The translations under genes were made by a program, and so were the position numbers. DNA of 64,000 nucleotides from Mesocentrotus franciscanus (taxonomy: Eukaryota > Echinodermata > Echinoidea > Camarodonta > Strongylocentrotidae), in assembly GCA_037976565.1 (NCBI GenBank), contig CP137682.1, positions 28,640,199-28,704,198 on the forward strand. Reading direction: 5' to 3'. Shown here one piece after another: positions 1,647-58,486 of this stretch. Each line of letters starts with the position of its first letter. Positions within the stretch are counted from its first letter, which is position 1. A model generated the notes under the pieces. It ran no database searches, was not told the origin of the DNA, and was given only the letters and a program-made list of their open reading frames with translations.

Positions 1647-1832
1647 CTAAAACAGGGAGATGTGTAGCGTAGTAACCTATCCCTGTTCCTGCTGTGGTGT
1701 ATTTCAGATCCACTTTTCCATCAAATCCAACTCTATGAGTAGTGACCAGTTTAGACTGAGTCCAGCAAACAGTGACGCCTGATCTTGGCCTTTCAGAAAA
1801 GGGACATATCTCAACAACAGTCCCACCGGCAC
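1647..1832 (-). CDS. Paralogue 2 exon 4: second half of the second MIB/HERC2 domain
   Basis: 186 nt, the same length as its partner at 38,569-38,754. It encodes CPFSERPRSGVTVCW, then HRVGFDGKVDLKY and YYATHLPVLG, which are MIB-domain signatures. Acceptor TTCAG, donor GTATTC; enters and leaves in phase 1. Confidence 0.85.
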
Positions 1833-6170: not shown

Positions 6171-6299
6171 CTGTAACTTTTAACACAAAAAGTTGTTGCT
6201 TTATGAACAAAATTAATACACTCAATAATGCAAAGAATAAACACAAATGTATCAGTATTTCAGGGATGAATATAGGCCATTTTCCTCAAAGGGCGGAGT

Positions 6300-8344: not shown

Positions 8345-8430
8345 AAAAAAGATACTAGCTGGGTATTGAACCCAAATCGTTCCGGTTAAAAGACGATAAC
8401 GAATCCGAAAGACTGCTGTGCCTCACTGAA
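8345..8430 (-). repeat. tRNA-derived repeat (SINE-like)
   Basis: On the minus strand a B-box-like GGTTCAATACC follows GTGAGGCACAGCAGTC, but the stems do not close into a tRNA. A matching copy sits at about 46,215-46,295 in the right block. Confidence 0.45.
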
Positions 8431-8704
8431 AATCTCTAATTATTTTCAATACATTAACACTTTTTGTCATGTCTTCCTCATATTAACACTTTCAGTTGCA
8501 GTTGATGGGATATAAAAGACGTAAATTTAGTAATTGAAAAAATAAGATGCTTTGATATTCTTCGTAATTCAGAAATTCACTTGTTAAAGAAAGATGATGA
8601 AAATCAAATTTTCCCACAATTGTTTTCTTAGGGAGGCCCCCCCCCCTCCAAGAAAAAAAAATGGCAAGTCAATATTATGGAGTAAAACATAAGAAGAAAA
8701 CAAT

Positions 8705-8778
8705 AGGATGAAGGAGTACGTGGGAATCGAACCCGTTATCTCCGCGTTGTGAACGATCACTTTTCCACAAGACCACAC
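8705..8778 (-). repeat. tRNA-like pseudogene or SINE head
   Basis: The minus strand carries a B box GGTTCGATTCC preceded by a tRNA-like arm (CTTGTGGAAAAGTGATCG). The acceptor stem does not pair, so this is not a functional tRNA. A more decayed copy lies at about 46,510-46,585. Confidence 0.45.
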
Positions 8779-8790
8779 TAACTCATTGCT

Positions 8791-9186
8791 ATAGAGTGGT
8801 GAAGTGTGACGTCATCAAAAATCTATTTTTGGAAATTTCTCAATTTTTTCTTCATTTTCCGAAAGAGCACCAGAAATAATGTCCAAATGTCGAAAACCAA
8901 TTGAATATGTTAAGTATTGGCTGAGATATGACCATCTGAATAAAAAGATTGCCTGGGAACTCAGTGTTATATTGCTCTGGCTCCTAATGTTATGAGCCAG
9001 AGCAATATAACACTGAGTTCCCATTGGCGATCTTTTTAATCAGATGGTCATATCTCGGCAAATACTAACATATTCGATTGGTTTTCGACATTTGGACATT
9101 ATTTTTGGTGCTCTTTCGGAAAATGAAGAAAAAATTGAGAAATTCCAAAAATAGATTTTTATGACGTCACAGCTTCGGTACTCTAT
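8791..9186. mobile_element. Foldback MITE: 193-bp arms, ~10-nt loop
   Basis: The arms 8791-8983 and 8994-9186 are near-perfect reverse complements, meeting at GGCTC-loop-GAGCC, with GTGACGTCAT-type outer sequence. The right duplication block lacks it at the matching point (about 46,590-46,610), which suggests a later insertion. If transcribed it would give a long double-stranded hairpin. Confidence 0.85.
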
Positions 9187-9225
9187 TTGCCCTTATTTGT
9201 TATCGCTTCTTGTTAACACTTCGTT

Positions 9226-11880: not shown

Positions 11881-11881
11881 A

Positions 11882-11887
11882 TTTATT
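11882..11887 (-). terminator. Candidate polyadenylation signal AATAAA
   Basis: TTTATT on the plus strand gives AATAAA on the minus strand about 40 nt past the stop codon of the MIB-ankyrin-kinase gene. The cleavage site is not determined. Confidence 0.4.
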
Positions 11888-11927
11888 TTTACTTTTTCAC
11901 TTTTACAAACCCTGCACATAACACATA

Positions 11928-12335
11928 TTAGGCAATGTCATTTAACTGGTCCAGGAGATCAGAAGCGGATGGCCTCTTCTCTGGCTTCTGTTCGAAGCAT
12001 GGTTCAAGGATCTTCTGAACCCTAGGATCAACAGTTTTCAAAGACTCAGGTTTACCCATCTGGCCTGTAACAATACGAGCCACCAGGGCTGCAGGATGCA
12101 CAAAGTTTCCCCACAGCCGCTTCATAGAGTACAGCTCCACTAATGTTCCTGCAACCGACCAGATGTCATGTTTGTTGGAGTGCCTGTAACCGTGTTCCGT
12201 TGCGCCAAGTGCCTCTGGGGGCATGAAGCATGGCGTGCCTCTCATGTTGAATGAGGATTGGGACATGTGGTTGCGATTCTTGATGTGGGCCAGGCCCAAG
12301 TCACAGATGTAGGGACGAACTGTTGCAGTGTCCAC
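11928..12335 (-). CDS. Exon 20: kinase C-lobe, DLG motif to stop
   Basis: 408 nt ending TAA. Encodes YICDLGLAHI (metal-binding DFG replaced by DLG, as in RIPK1), an activation segment rich in Ser/Asn, RGTPCFMPPEAL (APE motif as PPE), DIWSVAGTLVEL (subdomain IX) and KRPSASDLLDQL (subdomain XI). The Asp residues needed for catalysis are present. Acceptor is GTTAG. Confidence 0.9.
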   Translation of the reverse strand: MDTATVRPYICDLGLAHIKNRNHMSQSSFNMRGTPCFMPPEALGATEHGYRHSNKHDIWSVAGTLVELYSMKRLWGNFVHPAALVARIVTGQMGKPESLKTVDPRVQKILEPCFEQKPEKRPSASDLLDQLNDIA

Positions 12336-18300: not shown

Positions 18301-21300
18301 TATTCTGTTTTCTTTTTCTTTTTAGTCTACCATATTCTGTAAATTAGTGGTAGATCTGATATTTATTTATAGTCTGTATAGGTAACTAGATTAGTATTGT
18401 TAGTCCCCCTCCCCCTGTATTGTAACCTACCTCTCTAAAAAAATGCTGTTCCTGTAAAGGTGATCTGTGTTTAACAAGCTGTGCTTCTTAACAGACCACC
18501 TCTTTTTCCACATTTGTTTAAGTCTTTATTACTGTTTCATTGTTAATGTATTTATGCTAGTTGACGATGAACATGTTGCTACTGCTCCTGAATGAAATGT
18601 TTTTTTATGCAAGTGGAAAGAAATAAATAAATCTTGAATCTTGAATCTTGAAAACTTGATCTTTCCACTGTTCTTTAGTAATTTTCTCGAATTTACCTTT
18701 TCCGGTGGAAATTCATTTTTGCTGATATTATACAAATTTTGTCGATGCTTTATGTGTTGTTGTTTTTTACTGTGTATTTTTGCTATGCCTGATCGTGATT
18801 TGTATCTTCAATTTCTCAAGACTTTAAATTTTACATCATTATCTGATCAATTATCTCCTTTTACTGATGATGAATGTACTCATGGTCCTCAACAAAACTA
18901 GATATATTAGCAATGTTTGATCAGGCTTTTAAAATATTTTTTATAGTTTTTTAGTGTGTTTGTTTGTTTTGTTTGTGGTCTTTGTCATTGCTAATGTAAG
19001 AAACATAAACAATTCTTGTTTTTGTTTGTTAATCTTTTGAGTATCTATGCTTATACTTATTCTGTAAATCTTCAATCTGGTCTTGTTATACTCTCATCTT
19101 ATCCCAATTTCAAATTTTCAGTTTTGTGTAGGTGGCAGCACTAATAAAGCATTTCCTTTCTAGCTGTCTTCTCATTCTCATAAATACTCACTTTTCCCTA
19201 TATTTTGTCCAGATTACCTTTATGATGTATATTATATTGTCTGATTATCTTTGTAATGTATGTTTTTTTTTACTTTAAATCTATGTGATATTGTATGCTA
19301 TTTTATGTAAATGTTTTTTATGATGAATTAAATAAATATGACCATCTGATCTTTCTGATCTTTCTGATCTGAACGTATGACAGAATGTTTCTAAGTTCTT
19401 CCTACGTAGATTTTGCCTACCAGGCATCACCATCACACAGATCATATCAAAAAATACATGTACATCCTAGCAGACCCATTCGGCATGAATTTACAGTTCC
19501 CCTTTAAAAGCCTAAGAAGTATAAAACTCGTTGTGTGAGAATTCCATATTTTTTTGTCTCCTTCCATGGAATTTGATACATCAATAAACTCTCTGAACTT
19601 TTAAAATGGCTGTACCCATGTACTTACTAGAATATTGGCAGGCTTAATATCAAGATGCAAGATGTTACAGGCATGCATGAAGGTTACGGCTTGGAGAACC
19701 CCACGAGATATCTGAAGCTTTTTAGCCCAGTCTAGAGGAATCTGCAAGTTGATTATTGAAAAGCAATAAGAAACCGGCTATTTAAACAATGTACAGAATG
19801 ATATGCATACATTATTTTTTACATGACAAACTCGGTGAGAAAAATTAATATGATCTTGACGTCATTTATGTCTGGGAAAATGATGATTTTCTAAAGCTTT
19901 GTTCTCACATGACGTAGTAAACTATCTTTTAAAAAATCCCTGCGGCAAAAGAACATCCATTTCAGGAAAAAGTGAATGGCAATTTAAGTATAAAAGGATG
20001 TATGTAGCTGTGGCACCTATAGAAGTTCCTGTGATTTAAAAGATTTGAAGGGCACTAGGTCATGCAATTTCATTGCGGCAGTTTTTGAGAATTATCACGT
20101 CATATGTGAATAAAGCCGAACTTGCACTTACAACCAGGGAACGAAATGGTATTCAGTCTACCAATCATTTACTTAAATGGCTCTCTTTCCTGCTCACAGC
20201 CCCCCACCTCAGCCCATTCTCCCCCTCTCCTCCTCCATACCTTGCTTGGGAGGACCAAGACTGCACTTGGGCATCCTCTAACTCTCGCAATAATAATGAT
20301 GCTCAAACTTATACATTTAATCAGCAGGAAGTTTGGTTTTCATTAAAGAACGCCGCCAGCTTTGTCACCCACCATCCGCTGCATCTCTATATAGACCTTC
20401 ATACCATTACCTTAATATTACCCCTAGCTGATAAAACTTGCTCCTTCAATCATCTTCCAGCCATTAGCCCATTACCCCCCTTGCTTCCTACATTTACACC
20501 CCTTTCCTTCAGCCGCACATTTTCCTGGAAACCCTAGATTCAATTACCTTAACGTCATCCCGATCAGGAAAGATGATGGTGTATAAACTCGGTCCTTCAA
20601 TGAACTGCATTACCAGGAAGGCCTCTTGTCCCTGATATCCTAGAGCCATCATCTGAACAATGTTAGGATGAGATGCCCGTCTTAATGGAGAGAAGAGAAT
20701 GTTTGATGATCATTTCTCATCCCAAATATCTCTGGTCAACAAAGCTAAGTCCTGAGTATATAAACACATACTCACTACCGTACCAGGTTAGTCATGACAT
20801 TTTAACAATACTATTCTGGATCGATATATAGCTTCATACATCAAAGTTTGTGTCCCAGCTCTTGGTAGACATGTCTCTATCACGGTCAGCTTCCACATAA
20901 TGGATGTACATTCTCCGATTGCAGGGGAGCATAATGCTGACCAACCACTACGACTTTCCGATCTTCCAAAATACCCTTTCAATACTTGGCTGGAGAGTAA
21001 GAAATTACATAAAATCCACAAGTGTTTAGATCAAATATATATTTTTTTAACTGGAAAAATGTACTCTAAATTTTCCTTTTCAAACTTGAATTGATCGTAC
21101 GATTTCCTAAGGCCATTTTGTCCCATTTTGTTGGTGATGTGCCACATGACCTTACATATTTGGGAAAAAAATCTAACTAGACATGAGACTACATCTGGAA
21201 TACATCTGGATACCTGTGTATAGAGACTTCCTTTTCGATTTCATCTTTTCTGCTACCCATGATGGGGATCTTTTTTACTGCCACTGGAGTCCCTCTCCAG

Positions 21301-24300
21301 AAGGCTTGATGGACCACTCCAAACTGCCCCTTCCCAACCACACGACCCATGTCTAGGTCAGAGACTTCAATTTTGTGCACAAGATCGAAGACTGGAAAGA
21401 GAATAAAATGGGAGAAATTGATATCATACATATATACAATCTAATCTGTTTTTATGTCTAATAGTATAGATATATTGACTGCTATGAGAGGCATGGCTGT
21501 TTCTATATGCTCAAGGGGACGTTGCATCCTGCCATGACCCAGAGGCGAGCCGAGGGGTCATCGCAGGATGCAACGTCCCCGAGAGCCAGTATAGAAACAG
21601 CCATGTCTCGAATATTAAAGCAGTCCATATATCTTTTATATACCGAAATAACATAACGATCTACAAAGAATTCTTATATTCTCCTTTTCTTGAGTGAAGA
21701 CTGGTTAAAACATCACAGACAACCTGTGAAAATGTCTGTTAATCTATCATTGGGGAATCGCACACACTAAGCGACCAAATCGCACGCAAACTGTATGGTA
21801 TCCGCGCTCGCACAAACTTTTTACACGTAAACCAATGGGGATCTCGCCAACATGTATTTATGCGGCCAGTTAACCAGGGCATGAGGGAATTTTTTAAAAG
21901 ACTATTGACTGGTAGGAGGGCATGAGTGCATTAAAAAAAAGACTATTGACTGGTAGGCGGGCATGGCTAAAATCAAGACTCCAGTTTCGACCAATCAGAT
22001 GGCTAGATTTCTAAAGTGAGGTATATAATATAGATATATCGACTGCTACGATATGCCTGGCTGTTTTATAGGCTCAAGGGGACGTTGCAATCTGCCATGA
22101 TCCCGAGGCGCGCCTGGGTTTCTGTGCGAGCCAGTATAGAAACAGCCAGGCCTCGAATATTAAAGCAGTCGATATATCTTTTACATACAAGACGGTAAAC
22201 AGTGGATCTTTTTTTGCTAAACGATTGGCAATAGGGGATGAAAATATATGTAGCTGCATTCAAAAATGGTTCTACACATAATTGTAACTCGGTTATTTGA
22301 TATAAGATATACACATGTGAAGCGCAGTATGCTCTAAAAAAGTGATTAACCGGTTTACAACACCATGTGTTGACATGTAGGCTTATTGTAGATGTTTACC
22401 TTCAATTTTTGGACAATCAGTTGCACTTTCTCTCTCAGCTGAGTCCTGTCTTATCCGCTTTGGAGAGCATTTATCAGTGCCGCTCAGACCATCGTTTCGC
22501 TTTACGATAATATCATCGTCGTCAACAATGATGGACTTACTGCTCAGGCGTCCCTTTTTCACATCCTCGTCTTTCCCGAGGCCATCCCATGATGACATAT
22601 CACCAGCTCTGAAAAAGTATTTGATGAAACGGATAATATCCTCGACATAATGACATTGCAATTAGTGAAGATAATGTAATTGTAAGTACACTAGATTAAT
22701 GAATGACTAGGGTACAATTTTGTTTGTTTATAATGCAAGGTGACAAGAAAGGATTATTATGTGAGATCATTTAGATAAAATATGAAGACAGGATTTTTCA
22801 ACAAAAACAAAAGTTGAAGAGTAGAGGAAAAGAAGGAACTCGTTCATGTAGAGATCAGAAGATATCAATTCAGTCCATAAAAGGGTATAGGGTGAGATAT
22901 GAATGTGGCATTAATTGACTAAAAAGAAAACAGAACTAGTGATTCAAAAATATAATAGAGTAAAGAAAATATATGATGAGACTAGAAATCATGTGATCGG
23001 CCACGAAAGAATTTAAAATAGTTAATGGGAATTACAATGTTAAATGTTAATTAACATCAGGTTTGAGGGGCATGAACAGCATCATGTAGACAAAACATTC
23101 TGCTTGGCAGTACACATAAAATTAGAAAAATACAAATTACATTATTTTGATCTCATATGATTTTTGACATCTTCTTTAATTCTTTATATACCACAAAAAT
23201 AATCCCTCTATGCCACATTGTATTTATTGTGGGATAAATACTAATACTAATGGCATAATCCAGTTTCAAACACTGTTTCTAGTGCAATGTTCATCTTTAC
23301 TGGTATTACAAGGGTTGTCTTTGAGCTTTTTAAGACTAATAATGGGCGATTTTGCAAAGCTATTGTGATGCACAAAGTAATCATTCTGTCAATTGTTGCC
23401 CATTGTTTTAGGCAAAGTTGCATATGTGGCAACCGAGCGACCGTGCAGACAGGCAACGAAGGCAACCAAAGTGTTAACGATATTGACTTACATCTTTTCA
23501 CGAGCGATCTTCTTCAAAGTCTTCTTCAGCTCAGCATTCCTGATGTAATATAGCGGTGTTCGACATTCGGCATTCTCTAGGTCTACGGACGCTCCATTGA
23601 GAACCATGTAGCAGAGTGCGGCGGCAGCACTGTTATCAACTCCGCAATCTCTAAAACGCTTGCGAATCTGGTAGAAAATACAGAGCATCAAGTCAATCAG
23701 TCTTTGCTCAAATGTGGAGGGATTTGTTATTTTTGATTAGAACACCAAGTTAGAATCCCTGAAAATCTAAAAATCTGAAAATCTGAAAATCTAGGACCCT
23801 TGGTTATTATTTGGGGGATGGTACAATTTGCTTCACAAAAGTTGTTTATGGAGATTCCTCCAAACTAATGAGCATCAAAATCATTGAATCAAACTATAAT
23901 CACATCTTTTATTTAATGACTAAATGGAGTCAGTTGCTATCAATGTATATGAACCCTAGCAGTCGAACTGATTGTTGCTTTGAACGCCCTCATTTTAATG
24001 ATGGCAGCGGTGGGATACTGAGAAATCTTAGTAATAAAAATGACTGGTAACACATACTCCTTTATTGACATGGTGATAGCAGAGGGAAATTAACCCTAGC
24101 GATTAAAACGACTTGTATCAAAGTAGTTTTGTCTGGAATATCACATTGATGTCCTTCATCTGTGTCTCTTTATTACGGAAGGCATCTCACTATAAAAAAT
24201 AATGCCATGAAAGTGACTGCAGGTGTCTGAAACTCCTTCATTAACATTGGGTGCATTGTCTGGAATATTACACAGTACCAAATATCATTCCTCCTTATCC

Positions 24301-30300: not shown

Positions 30301-33300
30301 TGTATTTATTTTAAAGGGGACAAAAGAATTATCCGAAATTGTTATGCACTGTGTCCTTGGGGTCTTATACATCATGATGTTATTTGAAATTTTTCTGCTA
30401 ATTCCTGTAAAAGAATATTATTTAACAAAGCATTACATAATGATAATCTGTGTCTACAAAGCCAACTTTATCCATACAGCGGGTTCTATAATAATAGTAA
30501 TAAAAATAAGAAGAAGAATAAAAAGAAGGGGCAAAAATATATCGCGCTCGATATTAATGTTTCTTAGTGCTGTATTATCAATACCCTGTCATAAGCTGAG
30601 CTCCCCTGATAATGCACTCTTTAATTCAAGAAAAATCGTCTTACCGGGTACCATTTTACATCGCATGGGTGGAGAGTAGAAAACATAGATTAATATCTTG
30701 CCAAAGGACATCAGTGTGCTGCGGCAGAACTAGGACCATGTGATCCACTAGACATATACCCACTATAGACGATAACACCTCTACACATGTTTGGCTGTAC
30801 ATTGTATATCACATCATACATGTATCCATCAAAATTGTAAGACACATTCTTCAATCTCTCTGCCGAGTAACTTCCTATACTAACTGAATTCCTAACTTCA
30901 ACCCTGGAACAAACACCATACCTAACCCTAACCTAAGCCTTACCTTAAACCCAAACACAACCCTAACCCTAAGGTCTGGTTCAGATATGACTCCGCAAAA
31001 CTGCAGCGTTTTTATCTTACGCTGACGTGAAGTGTGTATTACGTCTCACATTTTTGTGTCTTACATGTAAAAAAAAAACTCAGCGTTTGTTTTCTTTACG
31101 GCGAGCCTTCAGCCTTTATTAACCCTTACTTATGACCAAAAATCGTCAGAGCAATTGTCACCAAAGCGATTGTTGCTGGAGCAAATGCCAGATCACTGAC
31201 TGTCACATGACCTACCCTTCGACAGAGTAATGAAGCGGAGTGTTCCCACCATCATTAGTGATATCTATCTCAGCCCCTGACTCAAGAAGTGCCTGAACTA
31301 CTTTAAGATGACCAAAGACAGCTGCGCTGTGTAGGGCAGTCATCCCACCAATTTTTACATTTGCCTGTAATATAATAATCATGATAATACAGAGTTATTA
31401 ACCCAAGGTAGCATTATTAAGATCAATATGACTCTTCCCGAGGGCCCTGCAATTATTATTACCCAAGCATTACCCATTTAATTCACCTGGCTTGAGGGGG
31501 ACGAATTTGGGCACAAAACCATGTCCAAGGATGCAAGCATTGAGCAAAGATCAAACTGGGACCTTTCATATATGTATGATAGTCATGAGTCTTCACCAAT
31601 ATACCACGATGCTTGCCTTTGAAGGATTTGGTGTGCAAAAAGATACATTCCCTATCAATGAAGCAGCTTAGAACTATGTATAAAAGTTGTGATAAAAAAC
31701 TTCTACTTGGAAATACAGTATACACGTAAAAGTTCAACTCCGTATTGAAAGACATTTTGGAAAAGAAGAAACTTTCAAGTGCATGACACTGTCATGCATT
31801 TCGTGGGTGGACAAGATTCACAAAAGTTTTAATGCCTTGAAAGTGTTTGGATTTACAGTTTTGAAGTTAAATGGGATCACCTTTTCTGGTGATATTGATA
31901 GAATCTCCACGACGCGTTCAACGTTGCCTCTCTTAGCGGCATTGATCAGTTGAGACTGTTCGTCTCCTTCGCCTGAATCACTATCGAATAAGCTGCCAGC
32001 TTTTGTCTGGAATAGTGATAGCATGGCTTTGACGATTTCAGTTTGTCCACTTCCGTCTGAATCAGTGATAGAAGATACCAATAATAACAATAGTAACATT
32101 TGTATGGTACTTTATAATAATACGTTGGCAAGCACTTTACATTGTAATTATTATTATAAACCAGAGTCAGTGGAATCAGTTGCTAACTCTATTACAGTGC
32201 ACACACTCTGCTCCATGGGGAGTATTCCGGCCAGGCACCATTTTGCAAGGGCACACATACCAATCCAACCACATTGACTTTCAGATCCTACTGGGTACCC
32301 ATTTAACACGAGGATGTAGAGTGGAAAATGTAGATTAATATATTGTCAAAGGACATTGGTTTCGCGACAGGACTCGAACCGTGAACCATGTGATCCACAT
32401 TCCCATGACGTATTAAGGTAGACCATGACACCTCAGTCTACAATAGGCCTTAATTTATCCAGGACCGTTTTTCATAAAACTTGTTATCAGCAACAAGTGT
32501 CAAAAATTCATGAAGGATTTGCTCACAGCCAATCAAACGCAATAGTTTCAGAAGTTTATAACAATTATTGTAACTTGTCATTGATAACAGGTTTTATGAA
32601 ACAGGGTCCAAGGTTCTTGCCAGAGGATAATAGCCTTGGTGCTAATATAAAACATGGGGGACTACAGCAAATTGACAAGGGCAAATTGTCTCTGACAAGG
32701 GTAGCAGCAAGGTTATTAAATATGGCAATGCATACTTTCAACCTGTAAACTTGTTCTGGTCTTCTTAAATCATTGATATTCCAACCCACCTAGCTTGAGG
32801 CCTATAGATTTAGCATCCTGCTTGTCATCATCTGATGAGTTCTTCTTGATGAGGACCAAGCAGCAGGGATGCCATGACCACATTTTCTCCAAACCACTCA
32901 ATCGCAACCGGCTGTCGTACCGTGAATCGACATTCATCACCGTCCCTTCCATTCCTAGACACTGAACATAGACATGAACTAATATTTGATAATAATTTAT
33001 TTTGCATGTAGTGAAACATCTTTAAAAATATCACGCTTACATAAAAATCCCAGGGCTACATCTTCTCCAAACCAGTCAATCACACCTGACTGTAGTGAAG
33101 TTCAACACTGTTCCTTCCATTCCTAAACAGTATAATAGAAATGGAGTATAGAGACTGAAACAGAGCTGATGCAACGTTTAATATATAAATAGAGCATCCA
33201 ATTTGATGAGTAACTCTCATATGACCCTTATAAGCACAATGGTGCAATATGTTTTTGAATGTTTTGAGAAAGGCTATACAGGATTATTAAATACAAACTT

Positions 33301-34294
33301 TGCCACCTGTCTTCCAAGGAAACTAAAGTTGAATATAATAATCATTCATAATGCATGTATTGAAACCTTAAAGAACACTTTTAAACATACTCTCATCAAA
33401 AGAAGGTATTATACTGGTTCAACTCTTTGTATTATGTATTCTCTTGTTCTTGATTCCTAGTGATATAGGATTCCATAAAAAAGGTAATCCGTGGTCTCAA
33501 AGAGTTTCCTAGAAAGACCACAAATCGACATTCAGAAATATGGTATGACCTTTCTATGCAATAATCACCAGTGGCTCCCCGTGTAGTAACCATACTTTTT
33601 CAAAGGCCACTGGACTTCATGTCTCCCAAGATAAACACAAAAGTTGAATATAATGCCAAACATTATTTTCATTTTTGCCTAAAATGAATGATAAGCTTTG
33701 ATTGATTACAACCATGATCTATTCAGATTTTAGATGTCATGCGACATACTGATTGATCCTTGTGAAAGATTTGTTTTTCTTAGCTACCGCCAAGTCCATG
33801 GTATTTCATAATTTTGTTTCCAGCACATGCATGTGCAAGTATCATGTAAATATGAATACAATAATCATCAATAGTATCATAGCCTATATAGCAACGTAGA
33901 ATCATAAACTTGGTACACTCATCAGATGAATTAACAAGTTTGAAGTAATTTGTAAAAATAGAATCCGTCCATTGATTAGTTTTTTTGTTTTTTGCAATTT
34001 ATTTAATAAGTAACATTTTCAAAATGTGGGAGGTTTTACACTAAGTTTCTTCTCTGGTTAATGCACAAACTAAGCACAGTGGGCTCTATTACTGGTACCG
34101 GACTTGGTACTATGTAGGCACATACAAGGTTAATAAGTCATACAGAACTTCATATTGTTTAAAAGTTTGTTTTGGGCTGACCTTTTCCATGCCATCCACC
34201 CATCCATTTTGACTGTTTTCTTGAAGATTCATCACGAACTTCAAGTCTTTATTGATCTGCACACGGTCTCCCTTACCTAGCCTTGGAACCTGAA

Positions 34295-34362
<68 letters not shown>

Positions 34363-35816
34363 ATATATATATATATATTTAATATATTTAATATAATAAG
34401 AGATGAAAATGATATTAGAGAGAAAAGAAAGAGAGATAGAGAGGTTGTGTAATAGAAAGGATGTGGGAAAGCGTGTTTGTGCATGTGTTTGTTTGTGTGT
34501 GTGTGTGCATCACAGAGAGAGAGAGAGAGAGATTGTGTAAGAGAGAGGATGTGGGACAGCGTGTGTTTGTGTGTGTGTTTCGAGCATAAATGAAAAGGTG
34601 GAGGTTGTGGGAGAGTGTGGGTATATATGCATGAGAGAAAGAGAGAGAGAGAGATTGTGTAAGAGAGAGGATGTAGGAGTGAGAGAGAGTGTGTGTGTGT
34701 TTTGTGCATAACCCTTACACAAAAAACATGGTACAGTACTACCACGGTACTACTATGATACAGACAGTACTACCATGGCTCTATATGTGTAGTGTACCAT
34801 AATAATTGTAATGGTACTACCATGGTAGTACCATGGTATATGTATTGTGATCAAAATACCGTGGCCAAAATATCATGTACCATGGTAACTTTTTATAAGG
34901 GAAGAGAGAAAGAGACAGAGAAACAGAGGGAGAAGGAGTAAGCAAGAGAGAGCAATAAAGGCAGAGGGAGGGACAAACGAAGGACAGAAAGAGACAGAGA
35001 TGGAGCTCGAGTTACAGTTAGTAAACATTTAAACTTGATACAAATAAAATCTCTAGCAGATGTGAAATTACATGTAGGAAAGAAAAGAAACTAAAGTTCA
35101 ATATGAACAATTATAAAAACATCATATATGTATAGAGCATGAACATATCTGACCGAAAACGTTCTGAAACAGTTATAAAGTGCACAGGAACTTCAGGAAC
35201 CTCAATTCAAGAAACAAATCAAGAATTTCATCATCACTGCTATTTCACTTCTTCATGTATGTTTCAATAGGCCCCTCTACACTACACTACACTACATGTT
35301 GTCTAATGCAATGTTTTCCATTGGTTCTTACTATTGACTTTCTCCATGGCATTTCTTATCAATGTTCAGATGGTGGTGGTCCGACATTCTCTTTGGCAAC
35401 TATTGCGTGGGGCTTTATTTCGTCAAAAGTATAGAGTCAATTTTAGGAAGTTAAGAATTCATTTACTGTAGGAAATTACTGCAAAAAACAATTGTCGCAA
35501 GAGCAAGTGATGTACAACTTCAGACCATACCTTGTTTAGTACAACTGGATGGAAGGTAAAAGGTTGTTCTCTTCTCTCAGGGTAAGTGACTTCTGCATTC
35601 CCGCTTGAGTTGATACCAGTAACCTTGGCAACCTTCCCATACAGCTGGAAGGGTAAAGAGTGTGAAAAGAAGATCAATGAGTAAGAAGATATTCCAAGTG
35701 ACAATGATCATTAAATATTTCAGTTTATAACAACAACCCTACTCTACTCTGTATATTACAGTATAAACACATATCATACATATAAATATAGTTATGATTT
35801 TGTTTTAAAATTATTA

Positions 35817-35859
<43 letters not shown>

Positions 35860-38800
35860 TTTTTTTTTTGGGGCTACTTTACATGTACTTTGTTTTGTGT
35901 ATTATCTTTCGTGTCACATACAGGCTGTATAGCTGACTTTACTAATGTTATTCAAAAGCTCCCTTGTAACACAAATGATGTGTTCTGATGAAAATAGATA
36001 AATGGATAGTGCGTTTAAATTAGTTTGTTAAACATTTGTTTGCTTATTTGTTTTGACTTATCTTTGCCTCCATTTAATAATCATAATAATAATAATAATA
36101 ATAATAGTTCGTCCTTATATAGCGCATTTATTGGGTTGTTGTTATTTGTTTGTATTTGTTGACATTCCTTTTAATACTTGAATTTACGTGTTAAAAGTTG
36201 TTTTATGCATTTACATATTTATTTGGTTGCTTATCTTTTTTTGCATACATTTGTTGTCTATTTTTTTAATTTTTTAAATCTAATCATTTGTATTTGTATC
36301 ACGCTACTCACATTTCCCATTTCTGGTAACCACTCTCGTCCACCCATCTGTTGCATAATATGCAATGTTTCCCTGTCCAGAGTAATAGCTACCAGATCTC
36401 CAACCTTCAAACCAACCTCTGTACCTGTTATCAAAACAGCCACATCAATGAAATTGAGAGGTTGGACATTAGAAATATATTGCATTTTTAAATTGAATAG
36501 CTTTGTCAAAAGAACATGATAAGCAGCTCAAGGTTGATATTGTCTGTTTTACCAAATAATCAAATAAAGTTAATTACATCATAATAAATACAAAAATCGA
36601 AGGTCACATCAAAATACAAAAGCTATATGTTAAAGATAACACCACACAATACCTATTCATAGAATATTTAAAATTTAGTATAAATAAAGATAAAGTAACT
36701 AATCACAATAATTCAGATACTGTCCACTAGTATTCAAGAGTATACAATCCATTTAAGCATATACAGGAATAGAATTATAGTAAACAGCCATTACAAAATG
36801 CCACAAACTGAAATATCATTAAAAATTGATTTAAAGAATAGCACAAATGTATGTTGTTGTGCGCATGATAATAAATAGGCCTAGGAGAAAAACGTTAACA
36901 GATATTAAAAAAAAAAAATCCGACATTGGGTCGAGTCATTACTTTTGCAAAAAATTAACCACAGTGATAAGTTTTGCAAATGCGAGTAATTTTTTCCCAA
37001 AAGAAAGAAACAAATCATATATAACAGAGGGTGTCCCTGACAAAATCTCATTTGACCAAAATAAGTGGATGGCTGTGTCATTTGGGTCATTATGGTTTTG
37101 GAAAAATAGCAAATGATGTGTAAATAGTAATTTTTAAACATACACATCATTGAAAAACTCATGAGTGAGCAATTAGCATCATGCGCAATTGTTAATAGGC
37201 ACATGCCATATTGTTTTAGGAAATGAAATGAGGCAGTTAAACCATTGCAATTTTGCCTTATCAATTGCAAATTGTTTCTGCTCGGTCCATTCATGATCCT
37301 TCCATCATTACCGTTGTGCCGTACTGAAGATGAGATTAAGAGTATTTAAATGATATGTATTTCCAATTATAAATAATTCCGTATCATTTCCCTTCCTTAA
37401 AAAGCATAAAGAACCAAATGTAGCAGCCATTCACTTATTTTGGTTAATTGGTTTCGTAATGCTTCTAATTCAGAGTGTCTGAAATTGGTAATGCGTGACT
37501 TCTTGATCATGGTTTTGGTGTGATATTAAAAAGTATAAAAATGAGCTTTCCAATGATATTCAAATAATCGAAAGAATTTGAATACTTCAGTAATTTACCC
37601 ACAAACTTGGGTTTCCTTTTCTCAGGAACACTCTGTAAAACAAATCACTGTTTATAATAAATCAACATGGTAAGGAATGAGATGATGAACCATAATAAAA
37701 TGAAATAAAGGAGATGAACATGGAGGATGACAGATAAAGGACTAGTTTTTAGGAGAAAAAAAGAGCGATGATGATCATGATGATAATGCTGTTGATGATG
37801 GAGATTATGATGATGATGATGGTGATGAATATGTTAATGATGATGGTGCTGTTGATAATGATGAAGGTATATAGTGGTGGTGATGATGCTAATGATGATG
37901 ATGATAACGATGAGGATCATGATGATGATGATGGTGATGATGATGATAATGATGATGAAGATGATGATGATGAATATGGTAATGATGATGGTGCTGTTGA
38001 TAATGATGATGAAAGTATATAGTGATGATGATGATGATGATGATAACGATGAGGATCGTGATGATGATGATGGTGATGATGATAATGATGATAAAGATGA
38101 TGATGATGATAATAATGATAATGATGATAAAGACGGTATAGATTATGATTATAAAGATGATGAAGATTGTGAGGATGGTAATGAAGATGATGATGATGAA
38201 ACCGGGATGATGATGATGATGATGATGGTATTGATGATGATTAAGGTGATGAGGATGAATAAGATGATGATGATGATGATGATGGTAATGATGATGATGA
38301 TTAAGGTGATGAGGATGATGAAGATGATGAGGATGATGATGATAAATATGGTACTGCTGATACTTATGATTATAATGATTATGACAGCTACTGATACCAG
38401 AACTTGTTACGGTGATGAAGTTGATCATTAAGATAAGAGTGATGGAAAGTAGACAACAGGTAGAGCAGAAAATACGTGTGTAATCCAAAACTAAAAAGTA
38501 AATGGAGAAAAAAAGATTTAGAGCAGCCAATATTGTGGATCAAAATGACAAAGTGCTTGATACAATACCTAAAACAGGGAGATGTGTAGCGTAGTAACCT
38601 ATCCCTGTTCCTGCTGTGGTGTATTTCAGATCCATTTTCCCATCAAATCCAACTCTATGAGTAGTGACCAGTTTAGACTGAGTCCAGCAAACAGTGACGC
38701 CTGACCGTGGCCTTTCAGAGAAGGGACATATCTCAACAACAGTCCCACCGGCACCTGAATCATCAAGAAAATATTCAATCAATCCATTTGTTTAGACAAT

Positions 38801-41440
38801 TTATTTAGTAAAGCTAAACAAAATCAAGTATTGTTAACCAATTACTCAATAATTACCAGACATAACATGATACTACAGGTACAAGCCGATTTTCTTACTG
38901 AATGTAAGCCATACCTTCTTATATTTATAGATCAGGGGCATGGCTTCATATTTTCATTTTGTTCAAATACTCACGGTGACTACCACAAATTTAGCTGAAT
39001 AATAATGGCATGATAATTTTACATTAAAATATCAGGTTGCATAAATACTTCAGTCATTTCCATGTTACTCCGGGATAGTATTTTTGCCTTTACTAATTTG
39101 CACTGGCAATAACTAATGCATTCGTCGTACTACATTCTGTACTAGGTAAGAGTAGAAATCTACAAGTTTATTAACTCTTTATATAACACACAAATATTGC
39201 CCCCCCCCCTCTTGTGCCACATTGTATTTATCATGGGATAAATATACTTATAAGTTTATATTTCCATGAATAATTGTAAATGTATTTTTATGGTTGAAAT
39301 AAATTGAAATTGAAATTGAAAGGCTTTGAAATTAAAAACTGTTTAACAAGGTTACAAGAGTTATAATATGAAAAGCTCTAATTCAATGAATATTTTTAAG
39401 CGATTGTATAAATCCCATCTTTTATCATTATATTCAATCTTAAATTAAATGATGTAACGCTTTAGTAAATGCACTGTGTAGTGTATTCCCCCTACCCTTC
39501 CCTTCCCCTTCGCTTTTGTTTTCTTTTGTATTGGGGTTCAGGTTTTCTCTGCGTTTCTTTTCCTTTTTTATTTTCTTTAAGGGGTTGACTTTTAAGGGGT
39601 TGATGTTCTTAAGGATAATTGCCCTTTTTGTCAACCCCACATTCCCATAAAATTTTGTTTACTCCTTCCCTTTGTATTTTTCTTGTAATCGATCTTTTTC
39701 CTGTAAATCATGTACATCATATTTGTATGTTTAATGTTTTTTTTACTACGGAGAATGAAACAAAGGAAATGAAATGAGTTATCATGGAGCTAATTAAGAT
39801 TGGAAATGGTTGATTTTTGCAAAGCCATTACATTACACAAAGCAATCCTTCCATCAATCCTTCCATCAATTGGTGTTTACTGTTTTGTGCAAAATTGCAC
39901 AAAACAAGCAACCATGCAGAGAGGCGAAAAAAGCAACCAAATTGTTGATATTTTGCCAAACGGCCCATGGTTGGGACGCTCTTAAGAAAATGAAAAAAAT
40001 CAACCCTAAATTATGTTACTGCTACGCTAAAGTTCATGATGATTAGTAATGTATACTTTTTAAACAAGTTACTAAAATCACAAATTAATAGGCATCGCAT
40101 TGGCAAATAGGCAAATCGTAAATGAAAGGAAAATAAAAGGAAGAAGTGAGAAATATGACTTTCATACCATCTTCATCATCTCCTTGCCAATTCTTCCCTC
40201 TACGGACCTCTGCCTCTGGACACAGCCCTCTGGAAACTATCTTCGCTTCTCCAAATCGAGGTGTCACTTGTGTCCTGAAGAAACAAACAATTCTCTCTTT
40301 TTAATTTTTTAAGAGAAATATATGAAGCTATCAGAACAATCAGATTGTGTAGAGTTAACTCAATCAAATACATCAAAAGAGGTCAATACATTTGAGACAG
40401 TTCCAACTCAAATTTCTGAAGCCAAAAGTTTGCCTGCAGGGGGTAAAACAAGGTTAGTAAGGGCATTGTTTTATGACTAAAAATGCCCTTTATAGAATAG
40501 CTTAGAAAGAAACACAAAATACCTTGACATCACAATCTTCACATGAATTATGACATTATCACCCACATAGCCTGGAACTCATCTCATGCACCCTGGGGTG
40601 GGAGAGGCCGATTTATCTATCTTTCATTCTGGTGGGGCAACGCCCCCATTGCCCCGCTTCTCGAGTACATTCTAAACAACATTAAGTTTTCCAGTTCTTT
40701 ATCCCACTTTCAAACAAAAGATGTATTGATATTCACAAAATATATTGCATTTTAAGGTAAAATATACAAAAGCAAAAACTCATAGTTATTTGTTTTGTTT
40801 ACATACCCTGTTTCCTTCCGGCTGGTTAAGCAAGTGAATGTATGAGTCAAGTCATGTTTATCATTCATGTAGCATGGAGTACAAAGGTCATAATCAGGGC
40901 AGCTTTGATCATTGCATGTCCAGCGTATGCCAGCTATAGGATTCATCAAACAGCTATCACAAACTATACCAAGATGAATCACACCTGGAAAAAGAATTGA
41001 GGAAGATGAAAAATTCAGAAATTGTATAGCAGTATTGGTGTCAATATGAATTGAAAAGCAATTCTCCCATAAGATACTCGAACTTAGAACTTGTCACTGT
41101 AAAAAAAATATATATAATTAGTTATTGACCATTTCAACAAAATCTTTTTATTCATGTACTCGTTATAAAACAAAAATTGTTACGAGAATTATTAAGGGGA
41201 TAATTACCTGCGGGGGCATTGTCGAAGAGTGCAAGATCATATGACCCATTGGACCCGACCTGATAGTTGTTACCATAACCATTATCCCATCTGACCTTGG
41301 CCCAGCCTGTAGGAATGGGTTCTTGAGGATCTTGATCTTTGAGCTTGACCACTGTCCCAAGATGACCCTCACCGCCATCCTGATCTCGCCATGTCCAGGT
41401 GGCTCCGGACAACTCGCTGTCCGACCTCCACGGTTGCCAT
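11928..41440 (-). CDS. Mind-bomb-like MIB-ZZ-MIB-REP-ankyrin protein with a C-terminal protein kinase domain
   Basis: Twenty exons joined by phase-compatible GT/AG sites: 41440-41208, 40984-40807, 40274-40168, 38754-38569, 36424-36312, 35644-35531, 34289-34182, 32961-32790, 32056-31881, 31364-31216, 30068-29912, 27190-27036, 26016-25884, 24958-24743, 23667-23492, 22608-22400, 21391-21214, 20680-20548, 19741-19628 and 12335-11928 (stop TAA). With the 2-nt loss in exon 1 made good the length is 1,138 codons. Approximate residues: MIB 1-78, ZZ 79-138, MIB 155-235, SH3-like repeats 236-404, ankyrins 410-792, linker 793-861, kinase 862-1138. Up to residue ~790 it follows MIB1/MIB2 module by module; the RING fingers are absent and a kinase takes their place. 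Kinase marks: GKGQFG, VAVKK, HLDIKPAN, DLG, PPE. MIB family members ubiquitinate Notch ligands at the membrane/endosome; here substrate recognition may be coupled to phosphorylation (inference). Oddity: the conserved ATG is out of frame with the rest. Confidence 0.85.
12870..15550 (+). pseudogene. LINE ORF1, frameshifted and split by a DNA transposon
   Basis: The first part (12870-13040) is Ser/Pro/Thr-rich; a frameshift near 13,040-13,110 leads into a coiled-coil-like stretch and EQYSRRNNIRILGV, a hallmark of L1/CR1-type ORF1 proteins. The frame breaks at 13,315, where a transposon is inserted, and resumes in the same frame at 15,161 with QIGITLTPCDIDRSHRL and a basic C-terminal domain ending at 15,550. 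ORF1 proteins bind element RNA. Confidence 0.75.
13316..15160. mobile_element. Non-autonomous DNA transposon nested in LINE ORF1
   Basis: Starts CAAAGAGATTAAGAGATATC and ends as a near inverted copy (ATATCTCTTTG), with inverted similarity continuing through CATGGAGTTC and, further in, GAGCATGCGCAGTTG. Flanked by GCCCAAC at 13309-13315 and 15161-15167; an eighth base differs (A/G). Removing element plus one repeat restores the ORF1 frame. Most consistent with hAT-like (8-bp duplications). No transposase frame is visible. Confidence 0.8.
15598..18196 (+). pseudogene. LINE ORF2: endonuclease remnant, reverse transcriptase, C-terminal domain
   Basis: 15598-16011 encodes the C-terminal half of an AP-type endonuclease (VYRPPN, MGDFNINLL, DISDHF). 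A one-base loss near 15,985 shifts into the reverse transcriptase frame (16095-17831): KKSPGYDGITNDLIK, NYRPISLL, DYSKAFDTVNHNIL, GVPQGSLLGPLLF and the catalytic FADDTSVF. A 2-nt GA expansion near 17,822 then shifts into the C-terminal domain (17828-18196) with TGPKYWNSL. The N-terminal endonuclease half is missing. CR1/Jockey-group by motif order. Confidence 0.85.
18652..19371 (+). mobile_element. 3' end of a second non-LTR element
   Basis: Ends in AATTAAATAAATATGACCAT followed by three TGATCTTTC repeats (19,346-19,371), the kind of short tandem tail typical of CR1/Jockey-like elements. The body has no recognised domain; one frame (about 18,641-18,901) is open but unidentified. Confidence 0.45.
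19628..19741 (-). CDS. Exon 19: kinase catalytic loop
   Basis: 114 nt, phase 0 both sides. Encodes ...VTFMHACNILHLDIKPANIL: the HRD motif is HLD with the catalytic Asp and the KPAN lysine/asparagine kept. The first half is subdomain VIa. Confidence 0.9.
19742..20547 (-). other. Intron between kinase exons 18 and 19
   Basis: A 154-aa open frame on the plus strand (20,073-20,537) is Pro/Ser-rich, has no similarity I recognise and is judged random. Confidence 0.5.
20548..20680 (-). CDS. Exon 18: kinase beta4-hinge region
   Basis: 133 nt. Encodes ASHPNIVQMMALGYQ (subdomain IV, HPNIV) and AFLVMQFIEGPSLYTII (hinge, Met gatekeeper). Acceptor ATTAAG, donor GTAATT. Confidence 0.9.
21214..21391 (-). 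CDS. Exon 17: kinase N-lobe
   Basis: 178 nt. Encodes VVGKGQFGVVHQAFWRG (glycine loop), TPVAVKKI (ATP-binding lysine) and an alpha-C helix with EIEKEVSIH. It follows the linker exon in phase 1. Confidence 0.9.
21466..22195. mobile_element. Pair of hairpins forming a complex foldback MITE
   Basis: Hairpin 1 (about 21,466-21,640) pairs GGGGACGTTGCATCCTGCCA with its reverse complement and GGCTGTTTCTATA with TATAGAAACAGCC. A diverged second hairpin lies at about 22,030-22,190 with the same AGACTGCT/AGCAGT outer words. The ~380 bp between has the repeat GACTATTGACTGGTAGG twice. Intronic, class unknown. Confidence 0.65.
22400..22608 (-). CDS. Exon 16: linker between ankyrins and kinase
   Basis: 209 nt encoding a low-complexity hydrophilic linker: DVKKGRLSSKSIIVDDDDII, then KCSPKRIRQDSAERES. 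It has an acidic run and a basic KRIRQ patch that could act as a nuclear signal or a phospho-regulated tether (inference). It occupies the place where RING fingers begin in MIB1/2. Confidence 0.85.
23290..23485. repeat. Dispersed ~190-bp repeat, copy 2 of 4
   Basis: Same word order as copy 1 (GGGCGATTTTGCAAAGC, TGCACAAAGTAAT, GGCAACCAAAGTGTTAACG). It abuts exon 15 within about 10 nt of the splice donor. Confidence 0.7.
23492..23667 (-). CDS. Exon 15: final degenerate ankyrin and basic helix
   Basis: 176 nt. Encodes SAAAALCYMVLNGASVDLEN (matches the SAASIACFLAANGADL region of MIB1), RTPLYYI and a basic helix LKKTLKKIAREK. This is the last segment alignable with Mind bomb. Donor GTAAGT. Confidence 0.9.
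24743..24958 (-). CDS. Exon 14: ankyrin repeats
   Basis: 216 nt, phase 0. Encodes GLDVNAKNVLGDTALHLAAY, then FLVSQGADINLQGQDDHTAL and HHVANAAGK: one full repeat plus the start of another. Confidence 0.9.
25600..25810. repeat. Dispersed ~190-bp repeat, copy 3 of 4
   Basis: Contains GAGCTAATTATGACC, TAATTTTGTAAAGCCAT, TTGCACAAAGCAATCC, CAGTCAATTGGTGCCTACT and GTGCAAAATTGCATG. It lies about 75 nt downstream of exon 13. Confidence 0.7.
25884..26016 (-). CDS. Exon 13: ankyrin repeat
   Basis: 133 nt. Encodes [20 protein letters not shown], nearly the same as the [20 protein letters not shown] stretch of MIB1, one of the clearest family matches. Confidence 0.9.
27036..27190 (-). CDS. Exon 12: ankyrin repeats
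   Basis: 155 nt. Using acceptor ATATAAG|GAT gives phase 0 and DTARDTPLHDTIIES, continuing the previous exon (...CDVNVQ). Ends MELTALQFATCMGKPE in phase 2. Confidence 0.85.
27540..27945 (+). repeat. Possible LINE 3' fragment in intron
   Basis: Ends in TTAAATCTTAATAAACCAAACCAATAAACC, a polyadenylation-like, short-repeat tail. The body has no recognised domain. Confidence 0.25.
28345..28475. repeat. GGGCTGTC-type minisatellite, left part
   Basis: Irregular units of the kind CGACAGCCCA-CAAGACCG. Related units recur on the far side of the inserted element at 29,795-29,865 (GTGGGCTGTTGGTCTTATGG). Confidence 0.55.
28476..29756. mobile_element. piggyBac-like non-autonomous element (TTAA target)
   Basis: TTAA at 28476-28479 and 29753-29756. 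Termini AGAGAAGG and CCTTCTCT are inverted; matching continues inward (TTCATTGA/TCAATGAT) and includes GTGACGTCACAATATGAAC at 28,668 against its inverse at about 29,550. A TTAA duplication is the mark of piggyBac-type transposition. No transposase frame is visible. Confidence 0.75.
29912..30068 (-). CDS. Exon 11: ankyrin repeats
   Basis: 157 nt. Encodes DEPAITKYLIGKGADINRGN, then GRRAIHQAAFRGFVDCARVL and INHECDVNVQ. Enters in phase 2, leaves in phase 0 at CAG|GTATGT. Confidence 0.9.
30642..30790 (-). repeat. SINE-like repeat, copy A
   Basis: Shares GGGTACC..TTTACA, GTAGATTAATAT-like, CAAAGGACAT and ACCATGTGATCCAC with 32,289-32,436. The B-box region is decayed here. Confidence 0.6.
30905..30973. 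repeat. Degenerate telomere-like CCCTAA repeats
   Basis: Several CCTAACCCTAACCTAAG-type words. Too short and irregular to be a telomere; a minor simple repeat. Confidence 0.4.
31216..31364 (-). CDS. Exon 10: ankyrin repeats
   Basis: 149 nt. Encodes GGMTALHSAAVFGHLKVVQA, then LLESGAEIDITNDGGNTPLH and YSVEG: a textbook ankyrin consensus. Donor GTAGGT, phase 2. Confidence 0.9.
31881..32056 (-). CDS. Exon 9: junction of REP region and first ankyrin
   Basis: 176 nt. Encodes AMLSLFQTKAGSLFDSDSGE (aligning with the LLKKLFETQESGDL stretch of MIB1) and SQLINAAKRGNVERVVEIL, the first ankyrin helix pair. Confidence 0.9.
32289..32436 (-). repeat. SINE-like repeat, copy B
   Basis: The minus strand carries a pol III B box, GGTTCGAGTCC (about 32,357-32,371), and the TAAATGGGTACCCAG block common to tRNA-derived SINEs. 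Lies in the intron upstream of exon 9. Confidence 0.6.
32790..32961 (-). CDS. Exon 8: second REP repeat, C-terminal half
   Basis: 172 nt. Encodes GMEGTVMNVDSRYDSRLRLS, then MWSWHPCCLVLIKKN (compare GRVQQIYSDSDLKVEV...WTYNPAAVSKV of MIB1) and an acidic tail. Confidence 0.85.
33048..33135 (-). pseudogene. Decayed duplicate of exon 8
   Basis: GTTCCTTCCATTCCTAAACA and TTCTCCAAACCAGTCAATC match the exon 8 words GTCCCTTCCATTCCTAGACA and TTCTCCAAACCACTCAATC in the same order. The minus frame starts CLGMEGTVLN-like, then hits a stop and is shortened, so it is a relic. Confidence 0.7.
34182..34289 (-). CDS. Exon 7: second REP repeat, N-terminal half
   Basis: 108 nt, phase 0. Encodes LGKGDRVQINKDLKFVMNLQ and GWVDGMEK, parallel to the [20 protein letters not shown] and GEWAEAM segments of MIB1. 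Confidence 0.85.
34296..34710. repeat. AT and GA/GT simple repeats beside exon 7
   Basis: (AT)n at 34,296-34,394, beginning only a few nt from the exon 7 acceptor, followed by GAGA and GTGT tracts to 34,710. Confidence 0.85.
34725..34888. repeat. Cluster of TACCATGGTA palindromes
   Basis: Repeated TACCATGG/CCATGGTA words, some overlapping (GGTACTACCATGGTAGTACC). Intronic, no other context. Confidence 0.6.
35531..35644 (-). CDS. Exon 6: first REP repeat, C-terminal half
   Basis: 114 nt, phase 0. Encodes LYGKVAKVTGINSSGNAEVT and FTFHPVVLNK (compare WTFNPAVLTK in MIB1). Confidence 0.85.
35811..35870. repeat. (ATT)n then (TTTA)n microsatellite
   Basis: Simple repeats in the intron upstream of exon 6. 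Confidence 0.85.
36312..36424 (-). CDS. Exon 5: first REP repeat, N-terminal half
   Basis: 113 nt. Encodes GLKVGDLVAITLDRETLHIM, then GGREWLPEMGN (compare [20 protein letters not shown] and GGWTDGMFE in MIB1). Donor GTGAGT. Confidence 0.85.
37765..38400. repeat. (GAT)n trinucleotide microsatellite, expanded copy
   Basis: About 640 bp of imperfect GAT triplets in the intron between exons 4 and 5, against about 220 bp in the paralogue. Creates long Asp-, Met-, His- and Ile-rich open frames that are not genes. Confidence 0.9.
38569..38754 (-). CDS. Exon 4: second half of the second MIB/HERC2 domain
   Basis: 186 nt, only a few substitutions from its partner (1647-1832), encoding GVTVCWTQ, HRVGFDGKMDLKY and YYATHLPVLG. 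Confidence 0.9.
39249..39318 (+). mobile_element. Short LINE 3' tail insertion
   Basis: Ends in (TTGAAA)n-type repeats. The paralogue is uninterrupted at the matching site (about 2,170), so this is right-copy specific. Confidence 0.55.
39365..39775 (+). mobile_element. 5'-truncated CR1-like LINE with target duplication
   Basis: Begins inside ORF2 (NSMNIFKRLYKSHLLSL then stop), followed by 3' UTR and a (GAAAT)-type tail. Flanked by GAGTTAT at 39358-39364 and 39776-39782; the paralogue has a single GAGTTAT at 2212-2218. Confidence 0.8.
39785..39965. repeat. Dispersed ~190-bp repeat, copy 4 of 4
   Basis: Orthologous in position to copy 1 (downstream of exon 3), with CCTTCCATCAAT duplicated locally. 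Confidence 0.7.
40168..40274 (-). CDS. Exon 3: first half of the second MIB/HERC2 domain
   Basis: 107 nt. Encodes VTPRFGEAKIVSRGLCPEAE, then VRRGKNWQGDDEDG. Donor GTATGA. Confidence 0.85.
40807..40984 (-). CDS. Exon 2: ZZ-type zinc finger
   Basis: 178 nt. Encodes LGIVCDSCLMNPIAGIRWTC, then CPDYDLCTPCYMNDKHDLTH: full ZZ ligand set. Acceptor TTCCAG, donor GTATGT. Confidence 0.9.
41208..41440 (-). CDS. Exon 1: first MIB/HERC2 domain, 2-nt deletion after the conserved start
   Basis: From the conserved ATG (41440-41438) the frame reads VEVGQRVVRS and then loses register, because the minus strand has AGCCACCTGG where the paralogue has AGCCCAACCTGG. The domain frame (WTWRDQDGGEGHLGTV...YDLALFDNAPAG) stays open upstream to about 41,529 but contains no ATG. 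An acceptor-like AAAACAG about 40 nt upstream could join an unseen 5' exon. Otherwise this copy's N-terminus is broken or mis-assembled. Confidence 0.75.
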
Positions 41441-54255: not shown

Positions 54256-54367
54256 TGCTCTCTGATCCAAAAGTGCCTCGTGAAAGACATGAATGCTCCT
54301 CTGGCAATAAGTGCAATAAATTGCTCTGCCGTCATTTGTCCTGCCTAAAAAGTGCCTTACAGAAGAC

Positions 54368-58478: not shown

Positions 58479-58486
58479 TTATATTA

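Follow-up and report, generated by a model that had tools for sequence, protein, structure and literature searches.

The MIB-ZZ-MIB and REP modules of MIB1 hold the tails of Notch ligands, and both MIB1 and MIB2 are RING E3 ligases. The locus studied here raises the question of whether such a scaffold can end in a protein kinase instead of a RING and, if so, what the resulting protein would do. It lies in a window of 64,000 nucleotides (C17:28,640,199-28,704,198; "the window" always means this whole stretch), and the genome searched for related sequences comprised 773 Mb in 21 contigs.

Exon map of the window gene

The exon borders of the window copy were carried over from an intact neighbouring copy (copy d, described below). 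They agree with a tblastn search using the S. purpuratus protein P0004, which found all of its blocks in order in the window copy; among these were the catalytic-loop exon (19,750-19,604, HLDIKPANIL) and, at 40,273-40,166, the initial part of the second MIB domain. The gene runs on the minus strand from 41,440 to 11,928, and its 20 exons correspond to MIB-ZZ-MIB, REP, ankyrin repeats, an acidic linker and a kinase domain:

41208..41440, minus strand: exon 1, start codon and first MIB/HERC2 domain; net 2-base loss after RVVR
40807..40984, minus strand: exon 2, ZZ zinc finger
40168..40274, minus strand: exon 3, start of the second MIB domain
38569..38754, minus strand: exon 4, second MIB domain; alone 32.5 bits, slightly below the Pfam cut-off
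36312..36424, minus strand: exon 5, REP (SH3_15)
35531..35644, minus strand: exon 6, REP (SH3_15)
34182..34289, minus strand: exon 7, REP (SH3_15)
32790..32961, minus strand: exon 8, end of REP
31881..32056, minus strand: exon 9, linker and first ankyrin repeats
31216..31364, minus strand: exon 10, ankyrin
29912..30068, minus strand: exon 11, ankyrin
27036..27190, minus strand: exon 12, ankyrin
25884..26016, minus strand: exon 13, ankyrin
24743..24958, minus strand: exon 14, ankyrin
23492..23667, minus strand: exon 15, last ankyrin
22400..22608, minus strand: exon 16, acidic linker; 30 nt less than its counterpart in d
21214..21391, minus strand: exon 17, kinase N-lobe with glycine loop and VAVKK
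20548..20680, minus strand: exon 18, kinase N-lobe and hinge
19628..19741, minus strand: exon 19, catalytic loop HLDIKPANIL
11928..12335, minus strand: exon 20, DLG to the kinase end, including the stop codon

A sequence-only reading of this DNA had proposed twenty phase-compatible exons leading from MIB-ZZ-MIB through REP and ankyrin repeats into a complete kinase domain and stop codon. Its exon number and outer coordinates matched the mapped borders exactly, as did the stretch from 23,667 to 21,214, and the modules were found in the order described on the minus strand. All 19 junctions of the window copy are GT-AG, and the lengths of all exons except exon 1 differ from those of copy d by multiples of three bases. 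MIB_HERC2 scored 68 bits in the window copy, above the Pfam cut-off, and exon 2 contains all eight Cys/His ligands of the ZZ pattern. Exons 5-8 align to P0004 across REP (the homologue P0002 has two SH3_15 stretches), and exons 9-15 align to it across the ankyrin region, where Ank models match in the homologues.

The proposed phase compatibility held for exons 2-20, which form 1,059 codons without a stop that continue into the kinase and end in TAA at 11,930-11,928, and it failed at exon 1, which is frameshifted; the window copy is therefore not intact. Exon 1 is 233 nt long here, whereas c, d and f each have 235 nt; as it is two bases short, the ATG and the first MIB domain lie in different frames: the ATG frame reads MATVEVGQRVVRS and meets a stop after 23 codons, and the MIB frame (ATWTWRDQDGGEGH; ATWTWRDQDGG...) is offset from it. 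Either the window copy is a null allele or a young pseudogene, or the assembly is wrong at this point; unless the frameshift is such an error, this copy is probably non-functional or N-terminally truncated. A later start could still yield a product, which would then have lost the first MIB domain.

Intron 19 (7.3 kb) contains reverse-transcriptase-like frames at window positions 15,577-18,196 on the plus strand, i.e. opposite to the gene, and by eye these belong to a non-LTR retroelement. Elsewhere in the window, a repetitive tract that contains long open frames occurs twice, in opposite orientations and about 3.4 kb apart (53,438-54,331, minus strand, and 57,745-58,554, plus strand).

The kinase domain and the search for a RING

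The kinase pieces of the window gene scored 95 bits against Pkinase (PF00069) and 85 bits against PK_Tyr_Ser-Thr (PF07714), above the Pfam cut-offs without the catalytic-loop exon. The catalytic Lys, Glu, Asp, Asn and Asp are shared by all 11 of the homologues aligned, without exception, and are present in the window exons too; in a 21-row alignment some of the kinase catalytic residues are merely near-invariant, and the predicted protein P0008 has no catalytic loop. HLD stands in place of HRD, and D-L/M-G in place of DFG. When a profile of the domain was searched against PDB sequences, the best of the matches listed were CTR1, then RAF, B-RAF and TAK1. NEK7 and ASK1 scored little lower, and the scores of Src-family kinases were close too; CTR1 again came first in a second such search. 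The fold model of the homologue P0028 is a two-lobed kinase, and its Foldseek structure matches were headed by CRAF/BRAF, with IRAK4 near the top of the matches listed. RAF, plant CTR1, TAK1 and IRAK4 are members of the TKL group. The urchin domain is like these TKL kinases in that it matches them best among the matches listed, and unlike them in its HLD and D-L/M-G motifs and in being joined to a MIB scaffold; these features point to a TKL-like, non-RD kinase. The S. purpuratus kinome comprises 353 kinases, 35 of them TKL (PMC4883820, quoting the 2006 sea urchin kinome paper).

A RIPK identity was considered because mammalian MIB2 binds RIPK1. No RIPK was found among the best 60 sequence matches and best 50 structure matches listed, which were headed by CTR1 and RAF kinases, and the link to RIPK is accordingly offered as a functional analogy only.

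We also considered a RING hidden in introns 15-19 or downstream of the gene. This was rejected after a scan of the three minus-strand frames of window positions 4,400-23,668 gave no RING at E<1, while detecting the kinase exons of the window gene and the ZZ and MIB exons of the next copy. A genome-wide RING search (best 150 of 301 candidates scored) likewise gave no match in the window or in C17:28.34-29.87 Mb. Within the reach of these searches, the claim that the MIB-kinase gene has no RING was borne out.

RING-type genes do appear elsewhere in this genome. Six of the eight loci around the best MIB matches (L001-L008) are closest to kinase-type urchin proteins; for L001 the nearest protein is a RING-type MIB2 from Diadema (86% over 72 aa), and L002 matches insect and crab MIB1 best (80-83% over 83 aa). 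A RING match at C17:19.709 Mb lies downstream of a MIB exon on the same strand, 37 kb from the MIB match of L001, and further RING matches lie downstream of same-strand MIB exons at C17 16.879 and 3.989 Mb. The same-strand RING matches nearest to L002 lie at a distance of about 217 kb (150 of 301 candidates scored) and could be part of this gene or of another. These matches indicate that a RING-type MIB2 and a MIB1, the latter judged by its N-terminus, are still present beside the kinase-type copies. The locus that extends from C17:3,988,787 to about 4,020,815 (both minus strand), where a RING match lies downstream of a partial MIB exon, adjoins the kinase-type array at 4.05-4.44 Mb, and it is possible that the exchange of RING for kinase took place there.

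Copies, relatives and selection

Genome-wide, the last kinase exon gave 22 matches among the best-scoring candidates, which manual pairing reduced to 19 kinase ends; two pieces at C17:19.5 Mb were counted as one, and C5:8.30 Mb and C17:21.63 Mb were left out as doubtful. Eighteen of the 19 are on a single contig, C17 (ten at 28.37-29.87 Mb, seven at 4.08-4.42 Mb and one at 19.55 Mb), with one more at C13:2.11 Mb. The kinase N-lobe exon lies upstream in 18 of the 19 cases. In 15 of the 19, an exon for the first MIB domain precedes the kinase end by 22-67 kb on the same strand. For the kinase ends at 28,776,676 (which carries a TGA), 29,868,723, 4,166,706 and 4,272,677 no first-MIB-domain match was found upstream among the best candidates scored. 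The MIB-kinase is a multigene, tandemly expanded echinoid family, and the window locus is one member of it.

The whole of C17:28.34-28.54 Mb and the rest of the neighbouring copy f were mapped. Two neighbours are intact, c with 1,146 aa and d with 1,148 aa, and the lengths of exons 15-17 keep the frame in c, d and the window copy (copy g). Copy f begins in the window:

4079..4313, minus strand: copy f exon 1, 235 nt, frame agrees
3264..3441, minus strand: copy f exon 2 (ZZ)
2589..2686, minus strand: copy f exon 3, 9 nt shorter than in d
1647..1832, minus strand: copy f exon 4 (MIB); the gene extends past the window, with its kinase end at C17:28,620,998

In copy f, exon 16 is reduced to a remnant by the mapping. 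Copy e (C17:28,482,104-28,549,334, plus strand, loci L027-L032) has one MIB N-terminus and a kinase end at 28,548,933, and its ankyrin block (exons 9-16) is begun four times; three of these reach exon 16 and the fourth is cut by the end of the mapped stretch. A -1 shift lies in its exon 6 (in e1), and further shifts occur in the repeated ankyrin blocks. The frameshifts in the window copy and in e, together with the exon-16 remnant in f, suggest that part of the array may be decaying.

A separate cluster at C20:7.14-7.31 Mb (loci L038-L040) has five tandem MIB_HERC2 exons on the minus strand; the single member that was inspected also has exons for ZZ and REP. The searches placed neither a RING nor a kinase near the cluster, and 20 kb of 3' sequence gave no Pfam match; perhaps these genes have a different C-terminus.

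We compared c, d, f and g in six pairs by dN/dS (NG86, no significance test), bearing in mind that gene conversion in a tandem array could distort the values. The kinase had the lowest mean of the five parts (0.29, range 0.19-0.40), followed by REP (0.32, 0.22-0.44), MIB-ZZ-MIB (0.38, 0.21-0.58), the linker (0.52, 0.31-0.73, three comparable pairs) and the ankyrin region (0.59, 0.46-0.87). This pattern suggests that both ends, MIB and kinase, are held and that the ankyrin part is freer; the ankyrin values are compatible with diversifying binding, with no value above 1. For the kinase, the pairs that include the window copy gave 0.31 (c-g), 0.29 (d-g) and 0.40 (f-g), and the others 0.29 (c-f), 0.23 (d-f) and 0.19 (c-d). 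As the kinase of the window copy is thus about as constrained as that of the other copies, the exon-1 defect is young, polymorphic or an error. In MIB-ZZ-MIB, pairs with the window copy gave 0.39, 0.40 and 0.48 vs 0.21 for c-f and d-f, a pattern that relaxed constraint would also give.

The same architecture occurs in predicted proteins of five named urchin species and is present in Strongylocentrotus, Lytechinus and Diadema; the nearest relatives of the window gene are Strongylocentrotus and Lytechinus proteins. When the kinase region was searched as a rough model without the catalytic-loop exon, 27 proteins matched, with urchins filling the first 10 places, and a search with Diadema P0009 gave 15 urchin proteins among the best 120 of 170 matches. 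A profile built from 11 full-length members was scored against the 7,988 candidates with the most words in common; the top seven of the best 120 of 360 matches were Lytechinus, Strongylocentrotus and Diadema MIB-kinases, and the remaining 113 had no kinase in their precomputed Pfam lists. The MIB-kinases P0002, P0004, P0005, P0007, P0031 and P0034 of the query alignment fell outside these best 120 of 360. Among the matches listed in the three protein searches, MIB and kinase in one protein were found in echinoids only. The search for the architecture elsewhere, suggested by the sequence-only reading, thus gave further echinoids among the matches listed; the listed MIB2-type entries of the crinoid Antedon (P0155), the sea cucumber Apostichopus (P0194) and the hemichordate Glandiceps (P0146) all carry RINGs, and sea stars and amphioxus were absent from the matches listed.

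Its suggestion that relatives might already exist in echinoderm databases proved right, mostly under the label 'E3 ubiquitin-protein ligase MIB2(-like)' and otherwise as 'ankyrin-2-like', 'mind-bomb-like' or 'uncharacterized'. MIB_HERC2, SH3_15, Ank and Pkinase were above cut-off in six of eight scanned kinase-type entries; ZZ was marginally below it in P0006 and P0007, and P0001 and P0009 have no MIB. The weak reverse-transcriptase match included in the predicted homologue P0142 indicates that predicted urchin protein models can be faulty. In a scaffold tree of 35 rows (quick method, MIB1 chosen as outgroup) all 15 rows of the kinase type cluster together on the MIB2 side (SH-aLRT 87), with the four MIB1 rows apart (SH-aLRT 100). 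The group stands beside two long-branched coral rows, a placement that we do not trust.

Proposed function and rival readings

The earlier interpretation of a scaffold 'rewired from ubiquitination to phosphorylation' is compatible with the domain order, with the conserved catalytic residues and with the dN/dS pattern. We consider it probable that the family is a MIB2-side paralogue with a TKL-type Ser/Thr kinase in the place of the RING, which phosphorylates a client and is likelier to act in immune or cell-death signalling than in classical ligand ubiquitination. MIB-ZZ-MIB and REP would hold the cytosolic tail or linker of the client, as in MIB1/MIB2, the ankyrin repeats would supply paralogue-specific binding or oligomerisation, and the kinase would phosphorylate the client, itself or a neighbour within the assembled complex. 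Kinase activity, client phosphorylation and a receptor-proximal immune or cell-death role are thus predictions from sequence. The immune reading is based on the expansion of the family, the non-RD kinase type and the divergence of the ankyrin repeats, none of which is specific.

If the kinase were secondary or a pseudokinase, kinase-type MIBs could instead act mainly as dominant-negative competitors for clients shared with RING-type MIBs. The retention and constraint of a scaffold in which no RING was found, the RING-type MIB2 in the same genome and the variant catalytic motifs would all suit such a decoy; we nevertheless think it unlikely, as the catalytic residues are invariant in the aligned homologues and the kinase, with a lower mean dN/dS than any of the other four parts, is more constrained than a dispensable domain would have to be. 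That the protein is a new Notch regulator, which binds Delta/Jagged tails via MIB-ZZ-MIB and REP and phosphorylates these tails or trafficking partners, is in our judgement improbable. The same modules do bind Notch ligand tails in MIB1, and the best solved relatives are the MIB1 structures 4xi6, 4xi7 and 4xib, but 19 kinase ends and ankyrin divergence would be unusual for a developmental regulator, and the RING-type MIB2 and the MIB1 orthologue (by N-terminus) persist. Client-directed phosphorylation is more likely to belong to an expanded immune or stress network than to core Notch signalling.

It could also be argued that two adjacent genes, a RING-less MIB and an ankyrin-kinase, have been mis-joined both by eye and by gene predictors: P0001 and P0009 hold just the end of REP, ankyrin and kinase, P0028 and P0029 hold ankyrin and kinase, and four of the 19 kinase ends have no upstream first-MIB-domain match. 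This reading is very improbable and was rejected as the main one: 15 of the 19 copies have MIB followed by kinase on a single strand, as do the predicted proteins of the five named species in their domain order, and exons 15-17 keep the frame in c, d and g. The earlier claim of one gene rather than two was in this respect upheld, with no separate RING exons in the regions scanned and no independent kinase gene found.

The preferred reading, i.e. a MIB scaffold with a client-directed kinase, can be set against known systems. Like the MIB1/MIB2 RING E3s, the urchin proteins have MIB-ZZ-MIB, REP (SH3_15) and ankyrin in the same order, with MIB1 4xi6 the best solved relative of the N-terminus; unlike them, they form a tandem multigene expansion with a C-terminal kinase, in which no RING was found. 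PMC5912950 reports that mammalian MIB2 needs MIB-ZZ-MIB to bind oligomeric RIPK1, which it then ubiquitinates via its RING, and that it binds the RIPK1 linker and not the kinase domain. In both cases a MIB scaffold would work with a kinase, the difference being that the mammalian system consists of two proteins and ubiquitination, whereas the urchin has one polypeptide, a putative functional analogue of the pair whose kinase need not be a RIPK. The 'MIB2-like' protein P0242 of the lungfish Protopterus annectens also has MIB-ZZ-MIB-REP-ankyrin with another enzyme in the place of the RING, although this single predicted protein, unlike the urchin family, carries a PARP catalytic domain there (81.6 bits); we found no literature joining MIB2, PARP and lungfish. 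A more far-reaching idea, which we regard as doubtful, is that evolution has used the MIB scaffold as a chassis for client recognition and has swapped its catalytic end more than once (RING in most animals, kinase in urchins, PARP in a lungfish), the echinoid form being a diversified one-polypeptide counterpart of MIB2-RIPK1 in immune or cell-death signalling.

No description of a MIB-kinase was found among the papers listed in literature searches. MIB_HERC2 and Pkinase are both hub domains of animal-specific combinations in PMC2394772. Many urchin proteins annotated as E3 ubiquitin ligases are very likely kinases and not RING ligases, and pathway and expression studies that rely on a wrong E3 label can be wrong. 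A S. intermedius 'MIB2' transcript that was lower at 25 degrees, and that may be of the kinase or of the RING form, was read as a ubiquitin ligase (PMC6458246). If active, the MIB-kinases would provide a natural test of what controls MIB-bound tails, be it binding, ubiquitination or phosphorylation, and would illustrate how an E3 scaffold can be converted to a kinase and then expanded.

Duplicated blocks were seen in some of the predicted proteins. In the MIB2-like protein P0158 of Mercenaria mercenaria the MIB-ZZ-MIB-REP block is doubled and the terminal RING match is below the curated cut-off, and in Lytechinus pictus P0006 and (by eye) P0010 the ankyrin blocks are doubled.
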